Source of the DNA: Nitrospira sp. CG24E
Lineage (GTDB): Bacteria; Nitrospirota; Nitrospiria; Nitrospirales; Nitrospiraceae
NCBI GenBank assembly: GCA_002869895.2
Contig: NEWP02000027.1
Coordinates: forward strand, 252,347 to 285,159
Length of the DNA: 32,813 nt
Direction of reading: 5' to 3'
Made by a program: the position numbers and the translations under genes. Shown here piece by piece: positions 10,776 through 32,813 of the stretch; within the stretch, counting starts at the first letter, position 1, and every line of letters begins with the position of its first letter. The notes under the pieces were generated by a model. The model saw nothing but the letters and a program-made list of their open reading frames with translations, was not told the origin of the DNA and searched no databases.

Positions 10776-11462
10776 ATGCCGATGCCCTATTACGTCTCGC
10801 CCGAGCAGATGATGCAGGACAAGGCGGAGTATGCCAAGAAAGGCATCGCCAAGGGGCGCTCCATCATCGCCATCGAATATGTGAGCGGGATTCTTCTGGT
10901 TGCGGAAAACCCCAGCGCGTCGCTGTATAAAATCTCCGAGATCTACGACAATATCGCCTTTGCGGGAGCCGGCAAGTACAGCGAGTTTGAGAATCTCCGG
11001 AAGGCCGGCATCAGACATGCGGACCTTAAGGGATTCATGTACAGCAGGGAGGATGTGACGGCCCGCTCTCTTGCAAACGGCTACTCTCAAAGCCTCGGCA
11101 CGATTTTCAGCCAGGAGATGAAGCCGCTGGAGGTGGAGATCCTGGTGGTGCAGGTTGGACACAATGGCCAGGCTAATGAGATGTATCGCATCTCGTTTGA
11201 CGGGAGCATTATCGATGAGCGAACCTTTGCCGTGATCGGAGGCAAATCCGAAGCCCTGCAGACCTTGTTAAAGGAGAAGGGGTTCACACAGCCTCCGGAA
11301 CTCCAAGCTGCTCTCGCGCTCTGTATCGCCTCCCTCGACCACATCGGGAACCAGAAGCTCTCGCTGGAGAGTTTGGAAGCGGCGGTGCTGGACCGCAACC
11401 GAGATGGACGGCGATTTCGGCGGCTTTCACCGGCGGATACCAAACAGCTCCTCGCAACCTAA
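10776..11462 (+). CDS. prcA: 20S proteasome alpha subunit PrcA
   Basis: Forms the outer gating rings of the bacterial 20S proteasome. The 228 aa start PMPYYVSPEQMMQDKAEYAK with the typical alpha H0 region (KAEYAKKGIAKGRSIIAIEY), followed by GILLVAENP, KISEIYDNIAFAGAGKYSEFENLRKAGI and a C-terminal helical part. There is no processed N-terminal Thr, as expected for a non-catalytic alpha subunit. ATG 10776 has a good AAGGAGA 8 nt upstream, inside the end of the preceding frame. The usual partner prcB is missing directly upstream, where the ThiG fusion sits. pafA follows after the E1 palindrome. Confidence 0.92.
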   Translation: MPMPYYVSPEQMMQDKAEYAKKGIAKGRSIIAIEYVSGILLVAENPSASLYKISEIYDNIAFAGAGKYSEFENLRKAGIRHADLKGFMYSREDVTARSLANGYSQSLGTIFSQEMKPLEVEILVVQVGHNGQANEMYRISFDGSIIDERTFAVIGGKSEALQTLLKEKGFTQPPELQAALALCIASLDHIGNQKLSLESLEAAVLDRNRDGRRFRRLSPADTKQLLAT

Positions 11463-11557
11463 CTGGTTCATTTGGTCTATTTGGTTTGTTTTGTTGAACC
11501 GGACGAACTAAGCCGACCAAACCACCAGATAAACCAAATCAACCAAACAAACCAGTC
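11463..11557. repeat. Palindromic 9-bp-unit element E1
   Basis: Left arm 11463-11500 is a run of TYTGGTYYR-type 9-mers (TTTGGTCTA, TTTGGTTTG); right arm 11516-11557 is a run of the complement (ATAAACCAA, ATCAACCAA, ACAAACCAG). The arms can pair over about 35 bp with mismatches. It begins directly after the prcA stop codon and lies in the prcA-pafA gap. No T-run follows, so it is not a standard terminator. Confidence 0.85.
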
Positions 11558-11617
11558 AAACGGATCCTGTCCTTCTGTTGAAGAAGCCTGAGTTGGCTGC
11601 TATTCTGTGCCGACTAC

Positions 11618-15013: not shown

Positions 15014-15388
15014 CCTAAAAGACAGGTGTGCCAGGGCTCAGCCGCTCACGCGACATCCGTAGTACACCTTCCAGACGCGGCGGGGCGGAATCCTTCTGGA
15101 ATTCCTTCGGCCACGGTATTCGACCGTGGCACCTCAGTCAGTTCCAGGACCACATTCTGGATTGTATGAACCTTCGAGCCCTTATCTGGACAAAGAATTC
15201 AGAATGTCCCCGTTCCGTCCGCCTCGGATCGGCGATTGCAGCAGAAGCGCTCATGAATAATGCGGGCTAAGACGAGGGGCACTTATTGTTTTCACGGTGT
15301 CAAGTCAAGCAACGACCCCATCGGAACCCGTTGATGCTATACTTTCCCAAGAAAAGCGTTGGATTCAGGCTGGGCAGGAGGTCTCTCC
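15014..15388. other. Intergenic stretch with no recognised gene
   Basis: No convincing coding sequence or RNA gene seen. A short perfect hairpin CCACGGT-ATTCG-ACCGTGG lies at 15111-15129 without a T-run. A TATACT (15338-15343) about 45 bp before the Sel1 gene could be its -10 box, but no good -35 is visible at the right distance. Confidence 0.5.
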
Positions 15389-16426
15389 ATGACTTTTCGC
15401 ATTCTGCTTCACGCACTCATGGTCATTGGTGCCCTGATCTCAGCAGGGATGAATCCTACTGAAGCTGCAGAAGACACCCCACAACAAAGGAAAGCCGAAT
15501 GTGAGCGAGGCTCTACACTACAATGTGTCATCCTCGGAGTTTTGTATTGGAATGGGAAAGAGGTGAAGCAAGACTACTTGCAAGCCGAAACCCTGTTCCG
15601 GAAAGCCTGCGACAGCGGAGATGTGTTTGGATGCTCCGCTCTCGGAGACATGTATTTGACGGGTACCGGTGTCAAGCTAACCTCTGATGAAGCGGTGAAA
15701 TCGTCCAGAAAGGCCTGTAATGGGAGATGGGCGGACGGGTGTTTCAACCTTGGCGTGATGTATGAACAGGGGCGCGGCGTCAACCAAGATGCCGTTCAAG
15801 CCGTGGTATTCTACGGGAAAGCGTGTTACGGAGGACATGCGGCAGGCTGTTTCAATATTGGCAGAATGCATGAGATGGGTACCGGTGTCAAACAAGACGC
15901 CGTTCAAGCCGTGACATTTTTCAGAAAAGCCTGTGACGGCAGCCATGCGGCAGGTTGCTCCAATCTCGGCGTGATGTATGCGCAGGGGCGCGGTGTCGAA
16001 CAAGACGCCGTTCAAGCCGTAGCATTTTACAGGGAAGGCTGTGACACCGGGGATGCGCTAGGTTGCTCCAATCTCGGTCAGATGTATGCGAAAGGTACTG
16101 GTGTCAAACAAGACAACGTTCAAGCCGTGGAATTCTATAGAAAGTCCTGTGACGGCAGGGAACTGATCGGTTGCTTCAATCTCGGCAATAGGTATAGGGA
16201 TGGGATAGGTGTGAAACAAGACAGCATTCAAGCCATAAAACTTTTTAGGCAAGCCTGTGAAGGTGGGGTGGCACGAGGCTGCGTCAACGTTGGCGTGATG
16301 TATGAGCGAGGGACCGTTGTCAAACAGGACAACAATGAGGCACTCAAGTATTACGGGAAGGGGTGCGATCTCAAAGAACAAAAAGGGTGTGAGCATTACG
16401 CAGGGTTGAAGACGGGCAAACGGTGA
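15389..16426 (+). CDS. Secreted Sel1-repeat (Hcp-like, cysteine-rich) protein
   Basis: A 345-aa exported protein: signal peptide (about 1-27, ending near TEAA) then about eight Sel1/TPR-like repeats of 36 residues with the pattern GCxNLGxMYxxGxGVKQDxxQAVxFYRKAC. Nine Cys-x7-Cys pairs occur, one per repeat, which is the arrangement of Helicobacter Hcp proteins where each pair forms a disulfide. It is probably a periplasmic or surface scaffold for protein binding; no enzyme motif is visible. ATG 15389 has AGGAGGT 5 nt upstream, so the longer frame from 15359 is not used. It stands alone between accessory sequences. Confidence 0.87.
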   Translation: MTFRILLHALMVIGALISAGMNPTEAAEDTPQQRKAECERGSTLQCVILGVLYWNGKEVKQDYLQAETLFRKACDSGDVFGCSALGDMYLTGTGVKLTSDEAVKSSRKACNGRWADGCFNLGVMYEQGRGVNQDAVQAVVFYGKACYGGHAAGCFNIGRMHEMGTGVKQDAVQAVTFFRKACDGSHAAGCSNLGVMYAQGRGVEQDAVQAVAFYREGCDTGDALGCSNLGQMYAKGTGVKQDNVQAVEFYRKSCDGRELIGCFNLGNRYRDGIGVKQDSIQAIKLFRQACEGGVARGCVNVGVMYERGTVVKQDNNEALKYYGKGCDLKEQKGCEHYAGLKTGKR

Positions 16427-17268: not shown

Positions 17269-17492
17269 GCAGGGCCGCTGGCCTTTAGCTGCTCAAAAAA
17301 AAACTCTTTGCGAGCTGGGATCGGTTCATGGTCCCGTACCCATGGTCCCGAGGTCTCTATCTGTGGGGCGCCCCCATCTGGGTACCGCGAGATTCCGATG
17401 AACAGGCGTTGGAGGCGGTATGTGTAGAGCTGGAGACGACACTGAATCGATTGACGGATCAGGCGGATGAAGCCGTGAGGCGTGAAACGTGA
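17269..17492 (+). pseudogene. 3' remnant of a DUF374 lysophospholipid acyltransferase gene, frameshifted
   Basis: Two frames together spell the C-terminal third of a DUF374 acyltransferase. The first reads AGPLAFSCSKK up to a run of nine A (17295-17303). The second, from 17304, reads LFASWDRFMVPYPWSRGLYL, then WGAPIWVPRDSDEQALEAV and ends LTDQADEAVRRET with TGA at 17490-17492. One extra A would join them. The first about 140 residues, including the HxxxxD acyltransferase motif, are absent. Genes of this type often precede waaA in LPS clusters, which fits its place here. The missing 5' part makes it a pseudogene whether or not the A-run is correct. Confidence 0.7.
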
Positions 17493-17566
17493 AACGTGAC
17501 GCGTTAAACGTAAGGGGTCCAGGGGCTTCGTTTCACCTTTCACCTTTCACGTCTCACGTTTAACGC
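17475..17566. repeat. Palindrome of CGTGAAA-type units upstream of waaA
   Basis: Left arm (17475-17511) repeats CGTGAAA and ends GCGTTAAACG; right arm (17527-17566) is CTTTCAC-type repeats ending in CGTTTAACGC. The arms form an imperfect inverted repeat. It covers the end of the acyltransferase remnant and stops 6 bp before the waaA ATG, so waaA has no clear Shine-Dalgarno sequence of its own. Confidence 0.6.
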
Positions 17567-17572
17567 ACAGCC

Positions 17573-18994
17573 ATGTGGCGGTTCTTCTACAATATTCTGT
17601 TGCTGGCCGTTTCGCCGGTCATCGTGGCGGTGCTACTGGCCAAACGACGGTGCCGTCGCGGGTTGCCGCAACGGTTGGGGTTACAAGAAGGTTCATCTGG
17701 TTTGTTTCGTTTATTTGGTTTGTTTAGTTTCCTCGAACAAAAGAATCCAAATAAACCAGATGAACAAAATAAACTAAATCAACCAGACAAACCAGTCATC
17801 TGGGTTCACGCCGTCTCTCTGGGTGAAGTGGTGGCGGTAACACCGCTCGTCATCGAACTGCATCGCCGTCACCCTGAGTGCCGTTTGGTGGTCTCGACGG
17901 TAACCGAGACTGGACGGGAAGCTGTGGAGCAACGGTTGGCCGGCGTGGCAGAACACTGTTATGCGCCGCTCGATTTTCCCTGTGTCGTGTCTCGTTTCAT
18001 CGAACGATTGCAACCCTGCCTCTATCTTTTCATTGAAACGGAGCTCTGGCCCAATCTCTTGTGGCACCTGCGTCGGCGCGGAGTGCCCACTGTGCTCGTA
18101 AACGGTCGACTATCGAGCAGGTCTTTTGCTCGGCAGCAGTGGGGGCCAGTGCGATCGTTTTATCGGACGATGTTGCAGACCATGAGCCTCTGTTTGATGC
18201 AATCGGATCGGGACGTCGACCGAATCGTTGCCCTTGGAGCAGAGGCCTCGCGAGTCAGGCGCACAGGAAATATTAAGTTCGATCAGCCGATACCGGCCAT
18301 TGCGGGCGAGAGAACGACGAGAGCCCATCTTGGACTTCAGGAATCGGAACAGCTGTTTGTGGCTGGCAGCACCCATCCCGGTGAAGAAGAAATGCTCGTG
18401 GGATGTTATCAGGCATTGGTGAAGCAATGTCCCACAGCGGTGTTGCTGTTGGCCCCTCGACACATTGAACGGGTGGAATCGGTGGAGGCGATGATTCGAG
18501 CACAGGGACTTGCCGTGCAGAGACGAAGTCACATTGGGCAGATCGGCGCGTTGCAGCCTGCCGGCCCCCGTGTGTTGTTGCTCGATTCCCGAGGCGAATT
18601 GGCGACGATCTACCGGGAAGCTGTGGTTTCGTTCGTCGGAGGCACGATGGTTCCAATCGGCGGACATAACTTGTTGGAGCCGGCTCAGTGGGCCAAGCCT
18701 GTCTTGTTCGGTCCCCACACTGACCATTGCGCCGAGATTGCCGATCTCTTGATGCAAGCTGGAGGTGGCCGGCGAGTTCTCCACGCCGAGGATCTTATCA
18801 GACAGGTGTTGGCTTTGTTTCCTGACAGTGAGGACCGGGAGCGGATGGGCCGGTCAGCTCGTCAAGTGGTCGAACAAAATCAGGGGGCCATGCAACAGAC
18901 GCTGGAGGCCATCGATAGGTTATTGAGGCCTCAGCAGGGCAGCAGTAGATCGTCCCTCGCGGACCGGTCGCTCCCCCTCGCCGTTAGGCGATAA
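17573..18994 (+). CDS. waaA: 3-deoxy-D-manno-octulosonic acid transferase WaaA (KdtA) with repeat-encoded insert
   Basis: Transfers Kdo from CMP-Kdo to the lipid A precursor at the inner membrane. The 473 aa have an N-terminal anchor (1-25), then VIWVHAVSLGEVVA with the catalytic-base Glu (about 85), FIETELWPNLL, NGRLSSRS, GSTHPGEE and FVGGTMVPIGGHNLLEPAQW, as in GT30 enzymes. The family is nearer 425 aa. The excess is mostly residues about 41-74, encoded by the palindrome E2 (17690-17795), which reads in frame as Leu-Phe-Gly-rich then Asn-Lys-Pro-rich sequence. The insert falls in the linker between anchor and catalytic fold, so the enzyme may still work. A short Ser/Arg-rich tail ends the protein. 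Confidence 0.92.
   Translation: MWRFFYNILLLAVSPVIVAVLLAKRRCRRGLPQRLGLQEGSSGLFRLFGLFSFLEQKNPNKPDEQNKLNQPDKPVIWVHAVSLGEVVAVTPLVIELHRRHPECRLVVSTVTETGREAVEQRLAGVAEHCYAPLDFPCVVSRFIERLQPCLYLFIETELWPNLLWHLRRRGVPTVLVNGRLSSRSFARQQWGPVRSFYRTMLQTMSLCLMQSDRDVDRIVALGAEASRVRRTGNIKFDQPIPAIAGERTTRAHLGLQESEQLFVAGSTHPGEEEMLVGCYQALVKQCPTAVLLLAPRHIERVESVEAMIRAQGLAVQRRSHIGQIGALQPAGPRVLLLDSRGELATIYREAVVSFVGGTMVPIGGHNLLEPAQWAKPVLFGPHTDHCAEIADLLMQAGGGRRVLHAEDLIRQVLALFPDSEDRERMGRSARQVVEQNQGAMQQTLEAIDRLLRPQQGSSRSSLADRSLPLAVRR
17690..17795. repeat. Palindromic 9-bp-unit element E2, inside waaA
   Basis: Left arm (17690-17738) has TCTGGTTTG, TTTCGTTTA, TTTGGTTTG; right arm (17739-17795) has the complementary AATAAACCA, AATCAACCA and GACAAACCA units. 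The whole element stays open in the waaA frame and adds about 34 residues. The first 18 nt are identical to the start of E5. Confidence 0.85.
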
Positions 18995-19056: not shown

Positions 19057-19215
19057 GCAGGTCTGTCTGGTCATCTGGTCTGTCTTGTCTATCTGGTTAT
19101 TCTGGATTATCCGGTTAGTCTGGGTCAACAAGCGCACGAGACGGATTAGACAGACCGAATAGACCAGATAAACGAGACAGACCAGATAGACCAAATGAAC
19201 AAGATCAGCCTTCAG
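19057..19215. repeat. Palindromic 9-bp-unit element E3
   Basis: A longer, C-rich variant. The left arm (19057-19130) is a run of TCTGGTCTG, TCTTGTCTA, TCTGGTTAT and related 9-mers; the right arm (19138-19215) is the complement. It lies in the 247-bp waaA-lpxK gap. The end 19172-19215 is identical over 44 nt, in reverse orientation, to 31615-31658 in E9. Confidence 0.85.
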
Positions 19216-19241: not shown

Positions 19242-20321
19242 GTGTTGAACCCTGGAACAACCGTGAGGTGGTGGCTGATCTGGGCTGCAATCCCCTATGG
19301 GGCGGTTACACGGCTGCGCGCATTACTGTACGACTGGGGTTGGATTGCTCAACGGCGATTGCCTGTCCCTGTGCTGAGTGTTGGAAATCTCACGTTGGGC
19401 GGGACAGGGAAAACGCCGGTGGTGATTGCGCTGACCGGTTGGCTTCTCGCAGAGGGGAAGCGAGTGGCGATTCTCAGCCGGGGCTATCGAAGGACCAGCA
19501 CGGATCCATATCTGTTGGTGTCGGATGGCGAGCGCTTGCTGGTCGGTCCGAGCGAGGCAGGTGATGAGCCATTCTTGATGGCGCAACGATGTCCCAAGGC
19601 GATCGTGGCGGTCGGCGCCGATCGGTATCGACTCGGCGCCTGGGTCTTGGATCGATTTCCAGTCGATTGTGTGGTGCTGGACGATGGATTTCAACACCTG
19701 GGTCTCTATCGCGACGTCAATCTCCTGCTGATCGATGCCACGGATGTCGAAGGACTTGCGGCGCTGGTGCCGGCCGGTCGCCTCAGGGAACCGCTCCACG
19801 CTGCGGTGCGCGCGACGGCGATCGTCGTCACGAGAGCGGAGATCCCTGCACAGGTGGCAGAGGTTGGTCGTAGGCTCCAGGCGTCGCTTGGCACGATGCC
19901 GGATCCGATTCACGCAGTTTTTCGTCCGGAGAATTTTGTGTCGGTGGTGACCGGAGCATTGCAGCCGCTCTCCTGGTCCAAGGAAAAGACCGCGTTGCTC
20001 TGCAGCGGTGTCGGACATGCCGGGTCGTTTCGCTCCCTCATGGAGGGCATAGGAATCAAGATTCTCGATGAAGTGGTCTACGCCGATCACCATGCCTACA
20101 CGAGCCAGGACGTCGAGCGATTGAGCGCCAGGGCGACGGAACTTCATGCCGACCTGGTCGTGACGACTGAGAAGGATGCTTGCAAGTTGGCTGCGTTGCT
20201 CCAACCTGCTGATAACTGGTGGGCAGTCCGGCTGACCACCAGCGTGATCGTGGGCGAAGATCGGCTGCGGGGGCTGGTGCTGGGGATGAGGCTGAAGGCT
20301 GATCCCCAGGGGACTGGTTGA
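19242..20321 (+). CDS. lpxK: Tetraacyldisaccharide 4'-kinase LpxK
   Basis: Phosphorylates the 4' position of the lipid A disaccharide at the inner membrane. The 359 aa have a hydrophobic N-terminal segment (about 10-24), the P-loop region PVLSVGNLTLGGTGKTPVVI (about 43-62), LSRGYRR, the GDEP motif, VDCVVLDDGFQHLGLYRD and the C-terminal TTEKDACKL. These are diagnostic. The start is a GTG at 19242; a GTG at 19263 is an alternative that would shorten the protein by seven residues. The stop codon lies in the first bases of element E4. Confidence 0.93.
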   Translation: MLNPGTTVRWWLIWAAIPYGAVTRLRALLYDWGWIAQRRLPVPVLSVGNLTLGGTGKTPVVIALTGWLLAEGKRVAILSRGYRRTSTDPYLLVSDGERLLVGPSEAGDEPFLMAQRCPKAIVAVGADRYRLGAWVLDRFPVDCVVLDDGFQHLGLYRDVNLLLIDATDVEGLAALVPAGRLREPLHAAVRATAIVVTRAEIPAQVAEVGRRLQASLGTMPDPIHAVFRPENFVSVVTGALQPLSWSKEKTALLCSGVGHAGSFRSLMEGIGIKILDEVVYADHHAYTSQDVERLSARATELHADLVVTTEKDACKLAALLQPADNWWAVRLTTSVIVGEDRLRGLVLGMRLKADPQGTG

Positions 20322-20412
20322 TCTGGTCAATTTAGTTTATTTGGTTCATTTGGTTTGTCTGGTGCGAAATAACCAACCAAACGAAACAAACAAAATAAAC
20401 CAAACGAACCTG
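20313..20412. repeat. Palindromic 9-bp-unit element E4
   Basis: Left arm (20313-20370) includes TCTGGTCAA, TTTAGTTTA, TTTGGTTCA, TTTGGTTTG and TCTGGTGCG; right arm (20371-20412) has AACCAACCA, ACAAACAAA and AATAAACCA-like units. It overlaps the last codons of lpxK and fills the gap to the waaF-gmhB gene. Confidence 0.85.
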
Positions 20413-20429
20413 CCCGGTTGCGGAGGGTT

Positions 20430-22151
20430 GTGAATAAGAGCGCCGTCAAAAGAATTCTTGTGCGTGGACCCAACTGGCTTGGCGATGCAGTGATGTGCGA
20501 GCCTGCGCTAGGAGGATTACAGAGACTATTTCCAGAGGCTCAGATCACTCTGCTGGTCAAACCGGCCGTGGCCGATTTGTTTGCCGGACATCCGGCGTTG
20601 ACGCGTGTGCTGACCTACGACAGCAAGGGGCGGCATATGGGGCTTTCCGGCAAGTGGGCGTTGGCTGGGGAGTTGCGGCAGCAAGGCTTCGATCTCGCGA
20701 TTTTGTTTCAGAATGCGTTCGAGGCGGCGTTCTTGACGTTCCTGGCCTCGGTCCCCCGGCGCTATGGGTATGCGACCGACGGACGAAGTCTGCTGTTATC
20801 AGATCCAGTCGCTCCGCCGGATCACCGCACGCTCGTCCATCAAGTCCATTACTATTGGGATCTGCTGAAACCGTTGGGCCTCACCGGCGATCCCACTGCG
20901 CCAACACTCGTCGTGTCCCCTGAGGAGGAACAGGCGATGGCTGGTCGATTTACCAAGGGCGGATTGACGGAATCAGATATTGTCGTCGGAATCAATCCCG
21001 GTTCGACCTACGGAGCGGCCAAACGCTGGCTGCCGGAACGGTTTGCCGAGGCCACGGAACGGCTGTGCCGCACGGTTTGCGACTCGGGCGATCGACAAGT
21101 CGGCGTGGTTATTTTCGGAGCCAAGGGAGAAGAACGTTTGGGCCGTGAAATTGCCGCCCGTCTGACGTCACGATCCCTGGTCTTATCCGGGGCAACAACG
21201 ATTCGAGAACTTATGGCGGCGGTAAAACGCTGTGCCCTGCTTCTTACGAACGATACAGGTCCCATGCACATTGCCGCTGCTTTCAAGGTGCCGGTTGTGG
21301 CGATTTTCGGACCGACCGATTGGCGGACCACGTCGCCGTTTGGCGACGCCCATGCCGTTGTGCGGCAGCCGGTCGATTGCGCCCCCTGCCTATTACGTGA
21401 ATGCCCCATCGACCATCGATGTATGACGAGGGTGACGGTTGACCAGGTCTATGAGGCGGCGACCGAACGGTTATCTGGTTCATCTGGTTTGTTTGGTTCA
21501 TTTGGTTCGAACCAAACAAATCCAACCAACCAAATAAACCAAAAGAACCAAACAAACCAAACAAACGCCCTTGAGGGTGTCACCGTCTTTCTGGATCGCG
21601 ATGGGACGTTGAATTACGATCCAGGCTATCTGAAAATCGCTGCCGATCTGAAGTTGTTGACCGGAGTCGGGCCTGCCCTGGCGCGATTGAGAAGAGCCGG
21701 CGCAAGATTAGTGGTGGTCACGAACCAATCCGGCGTTGGTCGTGGCATCATTACTCTCAAGGATCTGGAAGCGATTCATGCCAGATTGCAAGGTCTTTTA
21801 GAACAGCAGGATGCGGCGCTGGATGCCATCTATTTTTGCCCGCATCATCCTAACGATGGCTGCCACTGCCGCAAACCGAATATCGGCATGGTGGAGCGAG
21901 CTGTGTCGGAGTTGCAAGTGGATCTCCGGCGCTCCTATTTGATCGGCGACCACGCTCGCGACATACAATTAGCCCATAGAGTGGGCGCCAAGGCCATTCT
22001 TATTACAAGCGAGCCGGTGGACTCACAGAGGTTGGGTAGGCTCGAGGCTGAACAGGCTCTGCCGAGTATGGTGGCGAAGTCTATGACCGAGGCAGTCGAG
22101 TGGATTTTGGAGGATGCGTCTTCGCGTCCTCCGTTAACCGTGAATCGTTAA
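20430..22151 (+). CDS. waaF-gmhB: Fused heptosyltransferase II (WaaF) and heptose-bisphosphate phosphatase (GmhB)
   Basis: A bifunctional protein of 573 aa. Residues about 1-347 are a GT9 ADP-heptose:LPS heptosyltransferase: RILVRGPNWLGDAVMCEPAL, GINPGSTYGAAKRWLPERFA, TNDTGPMHIAAAFKVPVVAI and FGPTDWRTTSP. Residues about 380-560 are a HAD-IIIA phosphatase like GmhB: FLDRDGTLNYDPGYL (Asp 389 and 391), VVTNQSGVGRG, the zinc-loop CPHHPNDGCHCRKP and LIGDHARDI. GmhB makes heptose-1-phosphate on the way to ADP-heptose, so the fusion joins donor synthesis and transfer. Residues about 348-379 are encoded by palindrome E5. GTG 20430 has GGAGG 3 nt upstream; TTG 20418 is possible. The last residues (LTVNR) are encoded by the next palindrome. 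Confidence 0.92.
   Translation: MNKSAVKRILVRGPNWLGDAVMCEPALGGLQRLFPEAQITLLVKPAVADLFAGHPALTRVLTYDSKGRHMGLSGKWALAGELRQQGFDLAILFQNAFEAAFLTFLASVPRRYGYATDGRSLLLSDPVAPPDHRTLVHQVHYYWDLLKPLGLTGDPTAPTLVVSPEEEQAMAGRFTKGGLTESDIVVGINPGSTYGAAKRWLPERFAEATERLCRTVCDSGDRQVGVVIFGAKGEERLGREIAARLTSRSLVLSGATTIRELMAAVKRCALLLTNDTGPMHIAAAFKVPVVAIFGPTDWRTTSPFGDAHAVVRQPVDCAPCLLRECPIDHRCMTRVTVDQVYEAATERLSGSSGLFGSFGSNQTNPTNQINQKNQTNQTNALEGVTVFLDRDGTLNYDPGYLKIAADLKLLTGVGPALARLRRAGARLVVVTNQSGVGRGIITLKDLEAIHARLQGLLEQQDAALDAIYFCPHHPNDGCHCRKPNIGMVERAVSELQVDLRRSYLIGDHARDIQLAHRVGAKAILITSEPVDSQRLGRLEAEQALPSMVAKSMTEAVEWILEDASSRPPLTVNR
21471..21566. repeat. Palindromic 9-bp-unit element E5, forms the WaaF-GmhB linker
   Basis: Left arm 21471-21509 (TCTGGTTCA, TCTGGTTTG, TTTGGTTCA), right arm 21511-21566 (ACCAAACAA, CAAATAAAC and CAAACAAAC units). 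Read in frame it gives a Gly-Ser-Phe-rich stretch and then tripeptides of the Asn-Gln-Thr type. It sits exactly between two complete enzyme domains. Confidence 0.87.
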
Positions 22152-22219
22152 CCGTGAATCGGGCACAATACAGGCGCGGCATGGTCTTGCGATTCACGGT
22201 TAACGAATAACGATTAACG
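22132..22219. repeat. Palindrome of GTTAACCGTGAATC units
   Basis: The left arm (22132-22160) holds two copies of the 14-mer GTTAACCGTGAATC. The right arm (22190-22219) is the complement with a few changes. It covers the 3' end of waaF-gmhB, including its stop codon (22149-22151), and ends 3 bp before the next ATG. A related copy, GGTTAACGATTCACG, is at 30560-30574. Confidence 0.7.
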
Positions 22220-23257: not shown

Positions 23258-24273
23258 ATGTCCTCTTAGTCCGGCCTGACGGGATCGGCGATGAAATCCT
23301 CTGTCTGCCGGTTGCTTCTGAGCTGCGCCAGCTCCTGCCGGAAGTTCGGATCACTTTCTTGTCCAGCGAATATGCGGCCCCGCTCTTGGCTCACCACCCG
23401 GATCTGGACGAGGTCTGGACGGTCACGGGCCGTGAATCTTTGAGTGATCTGATATCGTTGTTTGGCCGGGCGGTTGATGCGGTGGTGTTTCTCAAGCCGT
23501 TCAAGAGGCTGATGTGGGCCGCGTTTTTAGCCCGAGTACCGATTCGAGTCGCGACAGGCTACCGTTGGTACAGTCTATTGGCGAATCGGCGGATCTATGA
23601 ACACCGGAAAGATTTTTCCAAGCATGAAGCTTCGTATAACGTGGCCATGCTCGCAGGGCTGGGATTGCATCCAAGTACTGTGGCCCCACCGAGTCTCGTG
23701 CTGACTGATGCAGAGCGAACGTGGGGAGAGGAATGCTTGCGCGCTGTGCCGACACCCAGGGTTGTGCTTCATCCAGGCGGCTTTGCTGCCCGGCGCTGGC
23801 GAGTTGAGCACTATCGTTCGCTCGCGCATGTGTTACACCGTAAGGGAGTAGGGGTCGTTCTGACTGGCAGCCAGGCCGAAGCAGACATGTTCAAGCAAGA
23901 GGCGATGAGTGACGCGCCCTTTCCCGCTTCAGTTTTGAATCTCATGGGACAGTTATCGGTGCGTGAGCTGATGGCCATCATTGCAGGGAGTCATACAGTG
24001 GTCTCCGGAGCCACTGGTCCGGCTCATATTGCGGCGGCTTGTGCTGTGCCGAATGTCAGCCTGTTCGATCCGCGGCGCAACAATCTTCCGACCCGTTGGC
24101 AGCCGCTCGGCAAAGGAGTGGTTCTCCGTCCCGATGTGCCAACTTGTGAGAAATGTATTTATGAAGCTTGTCCCTATTGGGACTGCCTCGACCGGCTGAC
24201 GGTGGAAACGGTTGCCCAGCAGGTTCTTCAAGTCGCGGCAGCTCCTTCGCCATTGAGGGTAGTCCATGTCTGA
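23254..24273 (+). CDS. GT9 heptosyltransferase family protein
   Basis: A 339-aa GT9 protein: NVLLVRPDGIGDEILCLPVA at the start, then a central domain and VVLHPGGFAARRWRVEHYRSLA, GSQAEADMF, and SGATGPAHIAAACAVPNVSLF followed by DPRRNNLPTRW. The C-terminal CEKCIYEACPYWDCLDRLTV has several Cys, as in other LPS heptosyltransferases. The exact acceptor is unknown. ATG 23254 overlaps the waaC stop by 4 bp; the open frame upstream (from 23179) lies inside waaC and is not used. Four GT9 genes occur in this cluster. Confidence 0.88.
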   Translation: MNVLLVRPDGIGDEILCLPVASELRQLLPEVRITFLSSEYAAPLLAHHPDLDEVWTVTGRESLSDLISLFGRAVDAVVFLKPFKRLMWAAFLARVPIRVATGYRWYSLLANRRIYEHRKDFSKHEASYNVAMLAGLGLHPSTVAPPSLVLTDAERTWGEECLRAVPTPRVVLHPGGFAARRWRVEHYRSLAHVLHRKGVGVVLTGSQAEADMFKQEAMSDAPFPASVLNLMGQLSVRELMAIIAGSHTVVSGATGPAHIAAACAVPNVSLFDPRRNNLPTRWQPLGKGVVLRPDVPTCEKCIYEACPYWDCLDRLTVETVAQQVLQVAAAPSPLRVVHV

Positions 24274-24282
24274 CAGCGGTGC

Positions 24283-24390
24283 GTTATTTGGTCTGTTTCG
24301 TTTATTTGGTTTATCTTGTTCGTTTGTACTCAACTAAAAACCAAACAAACCAAACAAACCAAACAAACCAAATGAACCAAATAAACCAGA
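24283..24390. repeat. Palindromic 9-bp-unit element E6
   Basis: Left arm 24283-24327 (TTTGGTCTG, TTTCGTTTA, TTTGGTTTA), right arm 24336-24390, the most regular of the set with repeated ACCAAACAA units. It occupies the gap between the GT9 and GT2 genes. Confidence 0.87.
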
Positions 24391-24399
24391 GGGTCGTGC

Positions 24400-25152
24400 A
24401 TGTCTAAGCTCTCGGTCTACGTGATCGCCTACAATGATGAACCGAACATGCGGGCTTGTCTTGAGTCTGTGGCTGGTTGGGGCGATGAGTTGATCGTTGT
24501 GGACTCGCATAGTACGGATCGGACCGCAGCGATCAGCCGGGAATTTACCGACAAGGTGTACCAACTCGACTTTCATGGATTCGGACGATTGCGCAACGAG
24601 GCAGTCGCGCTCACGACCCATGACTGGGTGTTCAGCCTGGACAGCGATGAGAGGATGACGCCTGAGTTAGGGAAAGAAATTCAGCTGCTGCTCGACCGCG
24701 AGCCGGACGTGGATGCCTACTTTGTGCCACGGAAAAATTACTTTTTGGGCCGGTGGATCGAACATTGCGGTTGGTATCCCGATTATCGGCAACCGCAATT
24801 GTTTCGCAAAGGCCGGTTTCGCTACCGTCAAGAACTGGTCCATGAAGGTTTCGATTGCGATGGACCGGTCGGGCACCTCAAGAGTCCCGCATTGCAGTAT
24901 CCCTTTCGCGACATCGATCACTACATTACAAAACAGGATCGTTACTCAGATCTGATGGCCAAGCGTATGGTGGAGCAGGGCCGTCAGTTCTCCTCCCATC
25001 AACTCATTACCCATCCGCTCGGCGCTTTTCTGAAAATGTATGTGCAACGGGCCGGTTTTCTCGATGGGATGCCGGGCTTGATTCTTTCCGGCCTCTATGG
25101 CTATTACACCTTCATGAAGTACGCAAAATTCTGGGAACTCACAAAACGGTGA
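24400..25152 (+). CDS. GT2 family glycosyltransferase, WaaE/KdtX-like
   Basis: A 250-aa GT-A enzyme. It has the nucleotide-sugar binding start LSVYVIAYNDEPNMRACLES, then WGDELIVVDSHSTDRTAAIS, the metal-binding region WVFSLDSDERM (DxD-like) and the conserved acceptor part YFLGRWIEHCGWYPDYRQPQ with LFRKG. This pattern is typical of LPS core beta-1,4-glucosyltransferases such as WaaE. The C-terminus has amphipathic or hydrophobic segments (GLILSGLYGYYTFMKYAKFW) likely to rest on the membrane. A paralogue lies at 26076-26870. It starts 9 bp after E6 with a weak AGAGGG upstream. Confidence 0.88.
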   Translation: MSKLSVYVIAYNDEPNMRACLESVAGWGDELIVVDSHSTDRTAAISREFTDKVYQLDFHGFGRLRNEAVALTTHDWVFSLDSDERMTPELGKEIQLLLDREPDVDAYFVPRKNYFLGRWIEHCGWYPDYRQPQLFRKGRFRYRQELVHEGFDCDGPVGHLKSPALQYPFRDIDHYITKQDRYSDLMAKRMVEQGRQFSSHQLITHPLGAFLKMYVQRAGFLDGMPGLILSGLYGYYTFMKYAKFWELTKR

Positions 25153-25156
25153 ACCC

Positions 25157-25229
25157 CGTTTATTTGGTTTATTTTGTTAGTGACCGGAGTAACGAAACAA
25201 ACTAAACAAACCAAATAACCAGACAAACC
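25157..25229. repeat. Palindromic 9-bp-unit element E7
   Basis: A short copy. The left arm (25157-25180) has TTTGGTTTA; the right arm (25190-25229) has ACTAAACAA, ACCAAATAA and CCAGACAAACC. It fills the 85-bp gap between two GT2 genes. Confidence 0.8.
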
Positions 25230-25237
25230 ATTCAATT

Positions 25238-26083
25238 ATGAAAGTCAGCGGGTTTACGTTTGTTCGCAATGCGGTGAAGTACGACTATCCAGCGATAGAG
25301 TCGATCCGTTCCATTTTGCCGCTCGTCGATGAGTTCATTGTGAATGTCGGGCGCTGCGACGATGGCACGCTCGAAGTGATTCGCTCGATCGGCGATCCGA
25401 AGATCAGAATTGTGGAGTCGGTCTGGGATGAGACGCTGCGAAAAGATGGTTTGATCTATGCCCAGCAGACCAATATCGCCTTGTCTCACTGTACCGGGGA
25501 TTGGGCATTCTATATTCAAGCCGACGAGGTCGTGCACGAAGACGATTTGCCGATCATTCAGGAGGCGATGCGGAGGAATCTCGGCAACCCTGAGGTGAAA
25601 GGGCTGCTGTTCCGGTATCTGCATTTTATCGCGGATTATTGGTCGACGAATCCCTGGTTCTATCACAAAGCCGTGCGGATCATTCGAAACAACGGTGAAG
25701 TCGAATCCTGCGGGGATGCCGTAGGGTTCCACTTGAAGGCGACACAGCAGTATCTTCAGAGCGGACCGAAGGAATGGATTGCTCCATCGGACGGGCATGT
25801 CTTTCACTACGGGTGGGTGAAGGATCCAAAAACGATGCTGGAGAAAAAACGGGAACAGGTGACGGTCTATCATGGAGGCCATGTGCCTGCCGCTGAGGCC
25901 AAGCAACTGGCTCATGACAGCTTTCAATTTGAAGACTATGCAGTGTTGAAAGAATTCAGTGGCTCGCATCCACGTGTCATGCAGGCACGACTCGGGTCAG
26001 CGCAACGGTGGGCATCACGGCGGAACCGGTGGCTCAACGGGAACTTCTATCGCGAAATCGCTCGCCGAGGATTTCGTGGGTGA
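25238..26083 (+). CDS. Glycosyltransferase family 2-like protein
   Basis: A 281-aa protein with a GT-A-type start (KVSGFTFVRNAVKYDYPAIE, then LPLVDEFIVNVGRCDDGTLE) and a DxD-like site changed to FYIQADEVVHEDDL. The rest (LFRYLHFIADYWSTNPWFYH, AVRIIRNNGEVESCGDAVGF, HVFHYGWVKDPKTMLEKK) is a pattern I know from predicted glycosyltransferases in LPS and capsule clusters, with no assigned donor or acceptor. It overlaps the next gene by 8 bp. Its ATG lies 8 bp after E7, with no strong Shine-Dalgarno sequence. Confidence 0.8.
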   Translation: MKVSGFTFVRNAVKYDYPAIESIRSILPLVDEFIVNVGRCDDGTLEVIRSIGDPKIRIVESVWDETLRKDGLIYAQQTNIALSHCTGDWAFYIQADEVVHEDDLPIIQEAMRRNLGNPEVKGLLFRYLHFIADYWSTNPWFYHKAVRIIRNNGEVESCGDAVGFHLKATQQYLQSGPKEWIAPSDGHVFHYGWVKDPKTMLEKKREQVTVYHGGHVPAAEAKQLAHDSFQFEDYAVLKEFSGSHPRVMQARLGSAQRWASRRNRWLNGNFYREIARRGFRG

Positions 26084-26870: not shown

Positions 26871-28006
26871 TGGCCACGCGCATTCTGTACGTGCATGGGA
26901 TTGAAGCCATCGGTGGGGCGGAACGCGATCTGATCGCACTGTTGAAGACACTCGGTCGGCACAAGTGGGAGCCGCATGTGGTCTGTCCTGGAACGGGCCC
27001 CTTCCAAGAGCAACTTCACGCGATCGCTGTGGCCACTCATGCTCTGAGCCTCCCCCCCTGGAGAAAACCCCTCGCACTCTTTCAGCGCCGATCGGCGGTC
27101 AGCCGTCTGAACGCTATCGTGGATCAAATCAATCCGGCGATGATCCATGTGAACGACATCTGGTGGGTGCCTCATACACTGCAGGCAGTCGCAAGTCGTA
27201 AGCAGAATCCCGTACCGATCATGGCCCATGTGAGACAGGAAATCGAACCGGTGAAGGTGCGTCGCTATCAGCTGGATCGTGTAGAGGCTGTTATTGCCAT
27301 CTCTCGGCAGATTGAACAATCGCTGATTGCCGGCGGAGTTTCAGACAACCATGTCCGCACTGTTTACAGCGGCATCGAGCTTTCCGAGAGACAGCTCTCT
27401 CACGATGATCAAGCGATTCGCCGGATGATCGGGGTCACGAACGAAGCGGTCTTGGTCGGGACTGTCGCCAACCTGTTCTCACGCAAAGGCTATGAGGTCA
27501 TGTTGCGGGCCCTCCCTGCCATCGTCAATGCGGTACCGACAGTGCAGTACGTGATTGTGGGCAGCGACGATCGCGGCTATGCCGATCGATTGAGGAGGCT
27601 CGCTGATGAACTGAAGATCGCCGATCGCGTGCATATGGTCGGCTTTCAGGATCCGGTCCAGCCTGTTTTGGCCTCTCTCGACCTGTATGTGCATCCGGCA
27701 CTTATGGAGGGGTTCGGGATCGCAGTGGTCGAAGCGATGGCCATGGGGAAAGCCGTGGTTGCGACGACGACAGGAGGACTTCCTGAAGTCGTGGCGCAGG
27801 GAGAAACAGGCTTGCTCGTACCTCCGGGAGATGCCGAATCATTGGCCGAAACCGTCGTGTCCCTGCTACTGGATAGAGTCAGGCGAGAGCAGATGGGCAG
27901 CAAGGGGAGGGCGCGCGCGCAGGAGCGATTTAGCCTCGGTGCGTCCGTCATGCAGATGGAACGGCTTTATGGTGAAGTGTTGAAGGCACACAAAGAAGGA
28001 AGATGA
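26870..28006 (+). CDS. GT4 family glycosyltransferase
   Basis: A 378-aa GT-B retaining enzyme: ILYVHGIEAIGGAERDLIAL (GGAE motif), VIAISRQIEQSLIAGGV, VYSGIELSE, VGTVANLFSRKGYEVMLRAL and the donor site HPALMEGFGIAVVEAMAMGK with the E-x7-E motif, then TTTGGLPEVV and GETGLLVPPGD. It would extend the LPS outer part or a related glycan in the cytoplasm. GTG 26870 shares one base with the previous stop (TAGTG). The stop (28004-28006) overlaps the ATG of the 14-codon stub at 28003. Confidence 0.9.
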   Translation: MATRILYVHGIEAIGGAERDLIALLKTLGRHKWEPHVVCPGTGPFQEQLHAIAVATHALSLPPWRKPLALFQRRSAVSRLNAIVDQINPAMIHVNDIWWVPHTLQAVASRKQNPVPIMAHVRQEIEPVKVRRYQLDRVEAVIAISRQIEQSLIAGGVSDNHVRTVYSGIELSERQLSHDDQAIRRMIGVTNEAVLVGTVANLFSRKGYEVMLRALPAIVNAVPTVQYVIVGSDDRGYADRLRRLADELKIADRVHMVGFQDPVQPVLASLDLYVHPALMEGFGIAVVEAMAMGKAVVATTTGGLPEVVAQGETGLLVPPGDAESLAETVVSLLLDRVRREQMGSKGRARAQERFSLGASVMQMERLYGEVLKAHKEGR

Positions 28007-28059: not shown

Positions 28060-28088
28060 TTAGCGGCGCCGGGCATTTCTGCTATAGT
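28060..28088 (+). promoter_or_regulatory. Candidate promoter for gmd
   Basis: TATAGT (28083-28088) matches the -10 consensus at 5 of 6 positions. TTAGCG 17 nt upstream is a poor -35 (3 of 6). It lies just before E8, so the palindrome would be in the 5' leader of gmd. Confidence 0.3.
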
Positions 28089-28093
28089 GCTGC

Positions 28094-28201
28094 CTGGTCT
28101 ATCTGGTTTATTTGGTCTATTTCGTTCATTTGGTTTGTCTCGTTCCTCGGATCGGAGCCAGCCAGATGAATCAAACAAACCAAATAAACAAAAGACACCA
28201 G
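28094..28201. repeat. Palindromic 9-bp-unit element E8
   Basis: Left arm 28094-28146 (TCTGGTTTA, TTTGGTCTA, TTTCGTTCA, TTTGGTTTG, TCTCGTTCC); right arm 28161-28201 (ATGAATCAA, ACAAACCAA, ATAAACAAA). It lies between the stub and gmd. Confidence 0.85.
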
Positions 28202-28229
28202 CTGATCCCATCAGCGCAGGGAGGTTGAA

Positions 28230-29204
28230 GTGAAACGGGCATTAATCACAGGGATCACCGGGCAGGATGGTTCCTATTTATCGGAACTGCTTCTCAGCAA
28301 GGGTTACGAGGTGCATGGAGTAGTCCGGCGTGTCGCCATTGAAGATCCGGTTCACCGGCTTCACCGCATCCTGCATCTGAAAGATCAGATCCAGTTCCAT
28401 GCCGCGTCGCTGGAAAGCTTTCCGAGTATTTATCGTGTGTTTGAGATGGTGAAGCCGGACGAATGTTATCACCTGGCTGCTCAAAGTTTTGTCGCCTACT
28501 CATTCGAGGATGAATTTTCGACGCTCAACGCCAATATCAACGGCACGCATCATGTGCTGGCCGCGTTGCGGGACTCTGCTCCTCACTGCCGCTTCTACTT
28601 TGCCGCATCGAGCGAGATGTTCGGAAAAGTGGCACAGGTGCCTCAGAACGAACAGACGCCGTTCCATCCCCGTTCAGCCTATGGCATTTCCAAAGTAGCC
28701 GGTTTTCACCTGACGAGAAACTATCGAGAGGCAAATGGGATCAAGGCCTCCTCGGGAATTCTGTACAATCATGAATCGCCCCGTCGCGGATTCGAGTTCG
28801 TGACCCGTAAAATAACCTCGCATGTCGCCCGCATCAAGATGGGCCTGGCAAAAGAGCTACGACTCGGGAATCTGGAGGCGCGCCGTGACTGGGGGCATGC
28901 GCGTGAATATGTAAAAGCCATGTGGTTGATGCTGCAAGAGGACAAACCGGACGACTATGTCATTGCGACGGGAGAACAACACACGGTACGGGAGTTTGCC
29001 GAGGTCGCGTTCGCACATGCCGGCCTCGATTACCATGACTATGTCAAAGTCGACCAGCAGTTTATGAGGCCGTCCGAAGTAGAAACCCTGCTGGGTGATG
29101 CCTCAAAGGCCAGGCAGAAACTCGGCTGGTCGTACGACGGCAAATTCACGGACTTGGTTCACGAAATGGTTGAGGAAGATCTGCGGCTCGTTCAACATCG
29201 GTAA
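28230..29204 (+). CDS. gmd: GDP-mannose 4,6-dehydratase
   Basis: Converts GDP-D-mannose to GDP-4-keto-6-deoxymannose, the precursor of fucose, rhamnose and perosamine donors for LPS. The 324 aa are an extended SDR enzyme with the NAD site TGITGQDGSYL (7-17), HLAAQSFVAYSF, SSEMFG (127-132), catalytic Tyr and Lys in YGISK (151-155), and the Gmd signature YNHESPRRG followed by VTRKIT. It is slightly shorter than many Gmd proteins. The start is GTG 28230 with GGGAGG 6 nt upstream. No reductase or epimerase that would finish the sugar (Rmd, Fcl, Per) is in the window. Confidence 0.92.
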   Translation: MKRALITGITGQDGSYLSELLLSKGYEVHGVVRRVAIEDPVHRLHRILHLKDQIQFHAASLESFPSIYRVFEMVKPDECYHLAAQSFVAYSFEDEFSTLNANINGTHHVLAALRDSAPHCRFYFAASSEMFGKVAQVPQNEQTPFHPRSAYGISKVAGFHLTRNYREANGIKASSGILYNHESPRRGFEFVTRKITSHVARIKMGLAKELRLGNLEARRDWGHAREYVKAMWLMLQEDKPDDYVIATGEQHTVREFAEVAFAHAGLDYHDYVKVDQQFMRPSEVETLLGDASKARQKLGWSYDGKFTDLVHEMVEEDLRLVQHR

Positions 29205-30584: not shown

Positions 30585-31625
30585 ATGCGAAACGTCCTCA
30601 TCATCAAACTTCGCTACATCGGTGACGTCTTATTGGCGACGCCGACCGTTCGAGCCATTAAAGCGGTTCGACCGGATGTCCGGGTGACGATGATGGTGAA
30701 TCGTGGGACGGAAGATCTGCTGTCCGGAAACCCGGACCTGGACGAGATCATGGTCCTCGACAAGGGGTCTCTGGCGGCACAATCGAGGCTGATCGCCGGA
30801 CTGCGCAGTCGGCAATTCGATACGGTGATCGATCTGACCGATGGAGACCGGTCTGCATTTCTGACCCGGGTCAGTGGAGCACCGGTTCGGATTGGATTCA
30901 ATGACGAGCATCGTTGGCGAGGGCGGTACTACACAGAGGTGATCCAGCCTGCGTCTGATGTGCGGCATAGGATTGACCGGGATCTGGGAACCCTCAAGCC
31001 CATGAGCATCCAAGCCAGCTCAAGGGATCCTCAACTGTGGCTGACGCAGGAGGAGATAAAGAGTGCGGATCAACTGTTGGATGAACTCGGCGTTCAGCGA
31101 TCGAAGTCGATGGTGATACTGCAGCCAGGCGCCCGGTACTGGTTTAAGGCCTGGCCTCTGGAACGGTTTGCGGAGCTGGCTAATCAACTTATGTCCCAGT
31201 ACGGCTGTCAGGTGTTGATCGGAGGCAGCGATCAAGACATCGACATTGCGCAACAGATTCAACGTATGGCGCAGAAAACTCCCACCATCATGGCAGGCCG
31301 GACTACGATTAAACAGTTCGCGGCCATTGCAGAAAAATCAGCGCTCTTTGTGGGAAGCGATAGTGGCGCGATGCACATTGCCTCTGCAGTCGGTACTCCC
31401 GTCGTAGCCTTGTTCGGCCCGTCGAATCCCCGTGAATGGGGTCCTCGAGGCGGTCCTGTGGAGGTGCTCTATAAGGAGATCGATTGCCGCAGTTGTTTTC
31501 ACCCGACCTGTTCGAGAGGCGAGGAGAATTGCATGAAGTTAATTGCGGTTCATGAGGTGGTCGCTGCCGCCCACCGCCTTCTCCTTGCCAGAAGTCGAGT
31601 TGCAGGGGGTAAGGCTGAAGGCTGA
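30585..31625 (+). CDS. GT9 heptosyltransferase family protein
   Basis: A 346-aa GT9 enzyme: NVLIIKLRYIGDVLLATPTV, FDTVIDLTDGDRSAFLTRVS, RIGFNDEHRWRGRYYTEV, LQPGARYWFKAWPLERFAEL, SDSGAMHIASAVGTPVVALF and GPSNPREWGPRG, with a C-terminal CRSCFHPTCSRGEENCMK that resembles the Cys-rich end of the other heptosyltransferases here. ATG 30585 matches the family start; the open frame reaches back to 30456 through the repeats but without homology. The last codons lie at the edge of E9. Its acceptor is unknown. Confidence 0.89.
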   Translation: MRNVLIIKLRYIGDVLLATPTVRAIKAVRPDVRVTMMVNRGTEDLLSGNPDLDEIMVLDKGSLAAQSRLIAGLRSRQFDTVIDLTDGDRSAFLTRVSGAPVRIGFNDEHRWRGRYYTEVIQPASDVRHRIDRDLGTLKPMSIQASSRDPQLWLTQEEIKSADQLLDELGVQRSKSMVILQPGARYWFKAWPLERFAELANQLMSQYGCQVLIGGSDQDIDIAQQIQRMAQKTPTIMAGRTTIKQFAAIAEKSALFVGSDSGAMHIASAVGTPVVALFGPSNPREWGPRGGPVEVLYKEIDCRSCFHPTCSRGEENCMKLIAVHEVVAAAHRLLLARSRVAGGKAEG

Positions 31626-31722
31626 TCTTGTTCATTTGGTCTATCTGGTCTGTCTCGTCTGTCTGGTCGAAGAGATCCATTCGGTCTTTCCAGTTAACTA
31701 ACCAGATAGACCAGACAGACCA
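31615..31722. repeat. Palindromic 9-bp-unit element E9
   Basis: C-rich variant like E3. The left arm (to 31669) has TTTGGTCTA, TCTGGTCTG, TCTCGTCTG and TCTGGTCGA; the right arm (31695-31722) has the complement. Bases 31615-31658 are identical to the reverse complement of 19172-19215. It overlaps the last codons of the GT9 gene. Confidence 0.85.
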
Positions 31723-31790
31723 TTTTCTCGCGAGTCCCGCAAGTCCCACTTGTCGCGCGCCATTCCAAGGGCGGTCTACGTATTTTTCGC

Positions 31791-32520: not shown

Positions 32521-32622
32521 CGGTTTATTTGGTCGAAGAGATTTGTTTGGTTTGTCTAGTTGGAAGAATCGGTGTGATTGATCACGAAACAAACCAGATG
32601 AGCTAAACAAACGAGATAAACC
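32521..32622. repeat. Palindromic 9-bp-unit element E10
   Basis: Left arm 32521-32563 (TTTATTTGG, TTTGTTTGG, TTTGTCTAG), right arm 32586-32622 (AACAAACCA, GCTAAACAA, GATAAACCA). It ends at the ATG of the four-helix-bundle gene. The upstream stretch 32440-32520 has no gene; it repeats GGAGCTGT and CTGTAAG. Confidence 0.8.
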
Positions 32623-32813
32623 ATGAAATTGACTCGTTTTGAAGATCTAGACTGCTGGAAAGAAGCTCGACAGTTGACGCGGCAAGTCTAGGAAGCCATC
32701 GAACAGAACTCTGCATGGAAACGAGATGCACGCCTCTGTGGTCAGATCCAGAGCGCTGCAGGCTCGGTGATGGCCAATATTGCCGAAGGATTTGTTCGCC
32801 GCTCGAACAAGGA
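32623..32813 (+). pseudogene. Four-helix-bundle protein gene (S23/IVP-like) with an early stop, cut by the window end
   Basis: From ATG 32623 the frame reads MKLTRFEDLDCWKEARQLTR QV and then TAG (32689-32691, codon 23), continuing EAIEQNSAWKRDARLCGQIQ and SAAGSVMANIAEGFVRRSNK to the window edge. The full line is a clear match to the family of about 120-aa four-helix proteins (FEDLxxWxxAR ... NIAEGFxRRS) related to the intervening-sequence protein of some 23S rRNA genes. The stop replaces the usual Tyr codon (TAC or TAT), so one base change would explain it. The function is unknown. Confidence 0.75.

Follow-up and report, generated by a model that had tools for sequence, protein, structure and literature searches.

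The fused waaF–gmhB gene and its repeat linker

The window (the whole 32,813-nt stretch of the Nitrospira sp. CG24E genome that we analysed) includes a fused waaF–linker–gmhB gene on the forward strand (20418..22151) in which WaaF (heptosyltransferase II) is followed by GmhB (heptose-bisphosphate 7-phosphatase), an assignment based on profile matches and on orthologous fusions. The open reading frame runs uninterrupted from 20418 to 22151 (+) with no internal stop, and the GTG at 20430 is probably the true start of the gene. Within the fusion protein, the heptosyltransferase II model TIGR02195 matches residues 12–350 and models of the GmhB-type HAD phosphatases match residues 389–565, and the protein shares with the WaaF–GmhB fusions of the phylum the presence of both domains in one frame with WaaF first. 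Between the two enzymes lies an in-frame inverted array of 9-bp units (21469..21567, + strand) which reads about SGSSGLFGSFGSNQTNPTNQINQKNQTNQTN and provides linker residues ~351–383. The initial annotation, made from the DNA alone, had described the repeat as the translated linker between two complete enzymes, and this description was borne out.

The 5' arm of the array (21474..21509, + strand) consists of TYTGGTYYR units in phase 0 which read S-G-x, and the 3' arm (21508..21566, – strand) consists of reverse-complement units which read N-Q-T. Across the whole window there are 59 TYTGGTYYR unit pairs where 0.19 would be expected (allowing ≤2 mismatches, with the expectation taken from dinucleotide shuffles). 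The repeat had also been called palindromic, and in part this is correct, as the arrays are inverted and the linker stretch folds well as RNA (z = –5.45). However, a test for exact inverted copying of one linker arm by the other gave no signal above shuffled arms, with the arms matching at 0.648 of degenerate positions compared with 0.658 for order-shuffled arms. Agreement at these positions being no higher than after shuffling, the linker 'palindrome' is two arrays in opposite orientations that share one degenerate consensus, and neither arm is an exact inverted copy of the other.

Both enzymes are under purifying selection, with dN/dS values mostly of ~0.1 for the WaaF and for the GmhB parts and of 0.15–0.33 for the linker, and the only GmhB-like match in the genome is the fusion gene's own domain (n = 1). 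AlphaFold models the WaaF and GmhB domains with confidence and gives pLDDT values below 50 to residues 355–380 between them, so that the linker is predicted to be disordered. Selection on both enzymes, the single GmhB-like match and the two-domain model together make translation through the repeat linker very likely, a view that rests on sequence conservation.

The same repeat is found between genes elsewhere in this cluster, as the initial annotation had noted. The intergenic 9-bp arrays of the window, to which we have assigned no strand, include an inverted array at 11456..11563, one at the waaA / lpxK junction (19060..19215), one at the junction between lpxK and the fusion gene which overlaps the lpxK stop (20314..20411), and one which fills the space from the end of a gene at 24273 to the start of another at 24400 (24281..24390). 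Others are at 25157..25230 (flanking genes end at 25152 and start at 25238), 28087..28208 (flanking genes end at 28006 and start at 28230) and 31620..31724 (after a gene ending at 31625), and there is a degenerate array at 32522..32632. A pattern search of the genome found 44 runs of three strict 9-bp units, and nearly all of the ~51 elements that we sampled lie between genes; these figures for the genome as a whole derive from pattern searches and from stretches that we sampled, and a reversed pattern is an unfair control for a periodic 9-bp pattern.

The fusion linker is not the only in-frame copy of the repeat, and on this point the annotation needs to be corrected, as the WaaA/KdtA (KDO transferase) gene (17573..18994, + strand) has a second in-frame inverted array of 9-bp units at residues ~39–77 (17690..17803, + strand). 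Its 3' arm reads N-K-P / D-Q-P, and in 12 of 12 units it uses the other open phase (N-K-P), unlike the fusion linker. The WaaA array is also present in relatives, amongst which its length varies. The fusion linker and WaaA are the only convincing in-frame cases among the ~51 sampled elements: the long open reading frames scanned across other 9-bp elements have no known domain, and a STAS-domain reading frame was set aside because its start probably lies after the repeat.

Other short-unit repeats and features were seen in the window. Just upstream of waaA, at 17481–17565, there are arrays of the 7-bp unit CGTGAAA and then of TTTCACC, which represent a further family of short-unit inverted arrays. 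The spacer 3' of the fusion gene (22132–22219) carries another inverted short-unit repeat, CGTTAACCGTGAAT / ATTCACGGTTAACG, where relatives have different families, and in two of these (L144/L145 of genome G009 and L146/L147 of G003) this spacer is ~440 nt long, with repeats of the GGCTGAAGG type coming first and surrounding a conserved inner sequence that is possibly a small gene or element. The reading frame at 15359–16426 includes a 108-bp coding tandem repeat in 3–4 copies (15775–16234) and possibly encodes a Sel1-like repeat protein, and a gmd-like gene (28230–29204) is 97% identical in G019, which is above the level of its neighbours, and is absent from this position in most other relatives, perhaps reflecting a recent transfer.

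Distribution of the fusion in the phylum

We found the complete WaaF–GmhB fusion in 22 genomes of the genus, this one included; the other matches within the genus are partial and several are cut by contig ends or runs of N, most relatives being represented by draft metagenome assemblies. In one such case (L099 of G002), an apparent loss of GmhB after WaaF was rejected, the break being due to a stretch of N in the assembled sequence. In our search of the phylum, nearly all of the genomes from the same family had matches spanning both enzymes in one frame, with a shorter match in G283. The fusion is also present in 12 other families (f3, f4, f5, f6, f7, f9, f13, f15, f21, f30, f32 and f35), where the linkers are repeat-free and of 21–45 aa, and repeat-free linkers are found within the Nitrospiraceae as well (L041, L042, L072, L076, L077, L080, L084, L085 and L088). 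Separate genes were seen in family f2 and a few others; in f2, six of the seven genomes examined have neighbouring waaF and gmhB genes and the seventh has no gmhB in the stretch analysed. These separate genes are mostly adjacent with a short gap, and there is no such repeat between them.

The initial annotation had proposed that the repeat fused the two genes, and had suggested comparing their arrangement in related genomes, looking for separate genes with the repeat between them on the one hand and for the same fusion with a non-repeat linker on the other. It was the second of these, which the annotation itself had named as counting against its proposal, that we found, both in the Nitrospiraceae and in the 12 other families. 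Because this fusion can be found without a repeat in its linker both within and outside of the family, it very probably predates the repeat, which would have entered an existing linker. The fusions across the phylum are probably homologous, and we go no further than this because waaF and gmhB are separate in the sister family f2; nothing that we found in the sequences would support an independent fusion in the Nitrospiraceae that began with a repeat.

Unrelated repeat families in the linker and their probable exchange

The linker of Nitrospira relatives is occupied by at least four unrelated families of inverted arrays. The 9-bp family is found in 13 genus rows of the set used for our tree, a 7-bp GGGGTRA family in G003 and G016, a GGGGCRA family in G022, G026, G027 and G010 (with a similar one in G028), a AGCTGACAGG family in G007 and G014, and a AAGTCTGA family in G030. 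The 9-bp, 7-bp GGGGYRA and AGCTGACAGG families also occur elsewhere in such genomes, where several sites fold as hairpins. The one pattern tried for the AAGTCTGA family found no copy outside of the linker in G030, and in G027 the linker was the only place where the GGGGCRA family turned up. Three genomes (G007, G010 and G014) have a linker of a different family although they are rich in the 9-bp repeat. Folding is much stronger than in shuffled sequences for many linkers, of unrelated families, and not for others; there is no hairpin signal (z ~0 or above) in L022, L041, L042, L072, L076, L077 and L080.

A tree of 70 fusions was computed from the two enzyme parts, with the linker left out, and on this the repeat class changes at least nine times among five classes. 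In some sister pairs the flanking enzymes are very similar and the linkers are not: identities upstream of, within and downstream of the linker are 98 / 41 / 95% for L019/L023, 93 / 36 / 91% for L021/L024, 91 / 42 / 95% for L045/L060 and 86 / 38 / 91% for L011/L020. The linkers of such pairs are unrelated, have sharp edges and are always in frame, and 77–88% of their third codon positions differ compared with ~9–26% in the flanks (p from 3e-9 to 1e-17). The opposite was found in three distant pairs (L020/L023, L025/L026 and L059/L079), in which the third-position difference is 0.08–0.12 in the linker and 0.37–0.45 in the flanks (p from 3e-4 to 1.5e-5). Linkers do not show this slow-down in general, since it is absent from ordinary 9-bp pairs such as L009/L012. 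The intergenic spacers of the same cluster likewise switch repeat family between species and, given this and the block differences between sister linkers, the linker behaves like a translated spacer. None of these sequences is an intermediate with a new repeat lying within an old linker, so that the replacement step itself goes unseen.

Within the 9-bp family the linkers also vary by whole units. The 13 genus 9-bp linkers are of 132–159 nt and all have lengths of 6 modulo 9, where the reading frame alone needs only multiples of three, and the 110 strict units counted in 33 linkers keep to one phase per arm, with 50 of 50 units of the 5' arm in phase 0 (S-G-x) and 60 of 60 units of the 3' arm in a single phase (N/D-Q-T); the rows behind these length and phase counts are not phylogenetically independent. 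The earlier statement that the repeat has no stop codon in the coding frames used is upheld by this count. From reading the codons, the 5' unit has no stop in any of the three phases, of which the unused two give more hydrophobic peptides, and the 3' unit is stop-free in two.

Origin of the repeat linker and comparison with known repeats

We have considerable confidence in an explanation in which the fusion is a bifunctional protein of long standing in the phylum whose tolerant linker was later filled by repeats; the repeat would then be a passenger put to use as a linker and would not have made the fusion. In the Nitrospiraceae, the tolerant and disordered linker of the old fusion would have been filled in frame by short-unit inverted arrays, and these elements would be of the same kind as those in the intergenic spacers of these genomes. 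Turnover would take two modes, one in which the whole block is exchanged for another repeat family between close species and one in which the 9-bp arrays gain or lose whole units of three codons. Replacement blocks may derive either from the genome's own intergenic copies or from another species, through an insertion or a recombination event, whilst selection would retain both enzymes, the reading frame and roughly the length of the linker (38–80 aa), leaving its sequence free to change and perhaps favouring the hydrophilic phases. More tentatively, and with rather less than even expectation of being right, we suggest that an active process in the Nitrospiraceae replaces blocks of inverted arrays in spacers and coding linkers equally, so that the linker is periodically exchanged in frame within and between species.

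The suggestion that the repeat itself joined separate waaF and gmhB genes, through insertion or recombination between repeats, is attractive in that the repeat spans the entire linker and is also found between genes at other places in the cluster, its units are stop-free in the phases used, and adjacent but separate genes exist in the sister family f2. We find it scarcely credible all the same, given the repeat-free linkers that the same fusion has across the phylum and in some of the family, the lack of any such repeat between the genes in species that have them separate, and the fusion without a repeat in L088, a row basal on the Nitrospiraceae side (though on a long branch which makes its placement less sure). 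Drift in place, by which an array would change into a different one through slippage and point mutation, without blocks being brought in, fits the differences of whole 9-bp units between arrays and the L022 and L055–L058 linkers which resemble decayed 9-bp arrays; it is nonetheless highly unlikely when sister linkers differ at most third positions within conserved flanks and have an unrelated unit of another length, and when near-identical linkers recur in distant species.

Such recurrence could also arise if whole linkers passed between species by short homologous recombination of the fusion gene and not by insertion of elements, as the linkers of the three distant pairs are more alike than their flanks. 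We are somewhat doubtful of this, as in the alignment the similarity falls at the edges of the linker and does not run into the flanks, and the same families are present elsewhere in some of these genomes; such recombination is not exclusive of the passenger explanation and may act within it. The good folding of many linkers from unrelated families could instead mean that the arrays are functional sites, such as an RNA hairpin or a transcription or regulator-binding element, with the hairpin needed in the linker, and paired tandem repeats in Geobacter metallireducens have been proposed as global regulator sites (PMC2700814). This is unlikely, however, as a hairpin signal is missing from several of the family's linkers and the arms match no further than the unit consensus.

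The closest known case is that of the Rickettsia palindromic elements (RPE; Ogata 2000, 2002; reviewed in PMC10969869), which are, like the Nitrospira arrays, dispersed palindromic repeats found in frame in protein genes and tolerated as an extra peptide. RPEs form families of ~150 bp with a conserved peptide, whereas the Nitrospira element is an inverted array of 7–9 bp units which varies by whole units, is mostly intergenic, and alternates with unrelated families at one linker; the peptides it encodes also vary, and the phase of the 3' arm differs between WaaA and the fusion linker. The paired tandem hepta- and octanucleotide repeats of G. metallireducens, the proposed regulator-binding sites mentioned above, resemble the 9-bp and 7-bp arrays in being multicopy short tandem units in inverted pairs, and another heptanucleotide family in that species is found both between and inside genes, as here; the unit sequences are different, and the part of that paper considered here describes no protein linker or swapping of families (PMC2700814).

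PARCELs are likewise protein-coding palindromic repeats that appear to spread (PMC2996958), but these are 25-residue amphipathic units in surface proteins and not the filler of a linker. The REP / BIME sequences, defined as short palindromic repeats of intergenic spacers (PMC12306157), are palindromic, repeated and mostly extragenic like the arrays, but a REP is a single stem-loop of ~14–40 nt with a common motif where the Nitrospira array is ~100 nt of 9-bp units in two orientations, and overlap of REPs with coding regions is rare, nor are REPs made of tandem units of 7–9 bp. In the open-licence papers that we searched, neither this linker nor such arrays have been reported in Nitrospira, and a limited search found no description of unrelated repeat families alternating in one protein linker.

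The fusion gene provides a lesson in that a repeat found exactly at the joint of a fusion need not have made it, which corrects an attractive but wrong inference. It also offers a natural series in which one enzyme pair is joined by many unrelated linkers drawn from repeats that are elsewhere non-coding, and hence a direct means of studying how much change a linker tolerates and how proteins recruit non-coding repeats. Beyond this, it draws attention to short-unit inverted arrays, a class that has been little studied and that turns over quickly in Nitrospira genomes.
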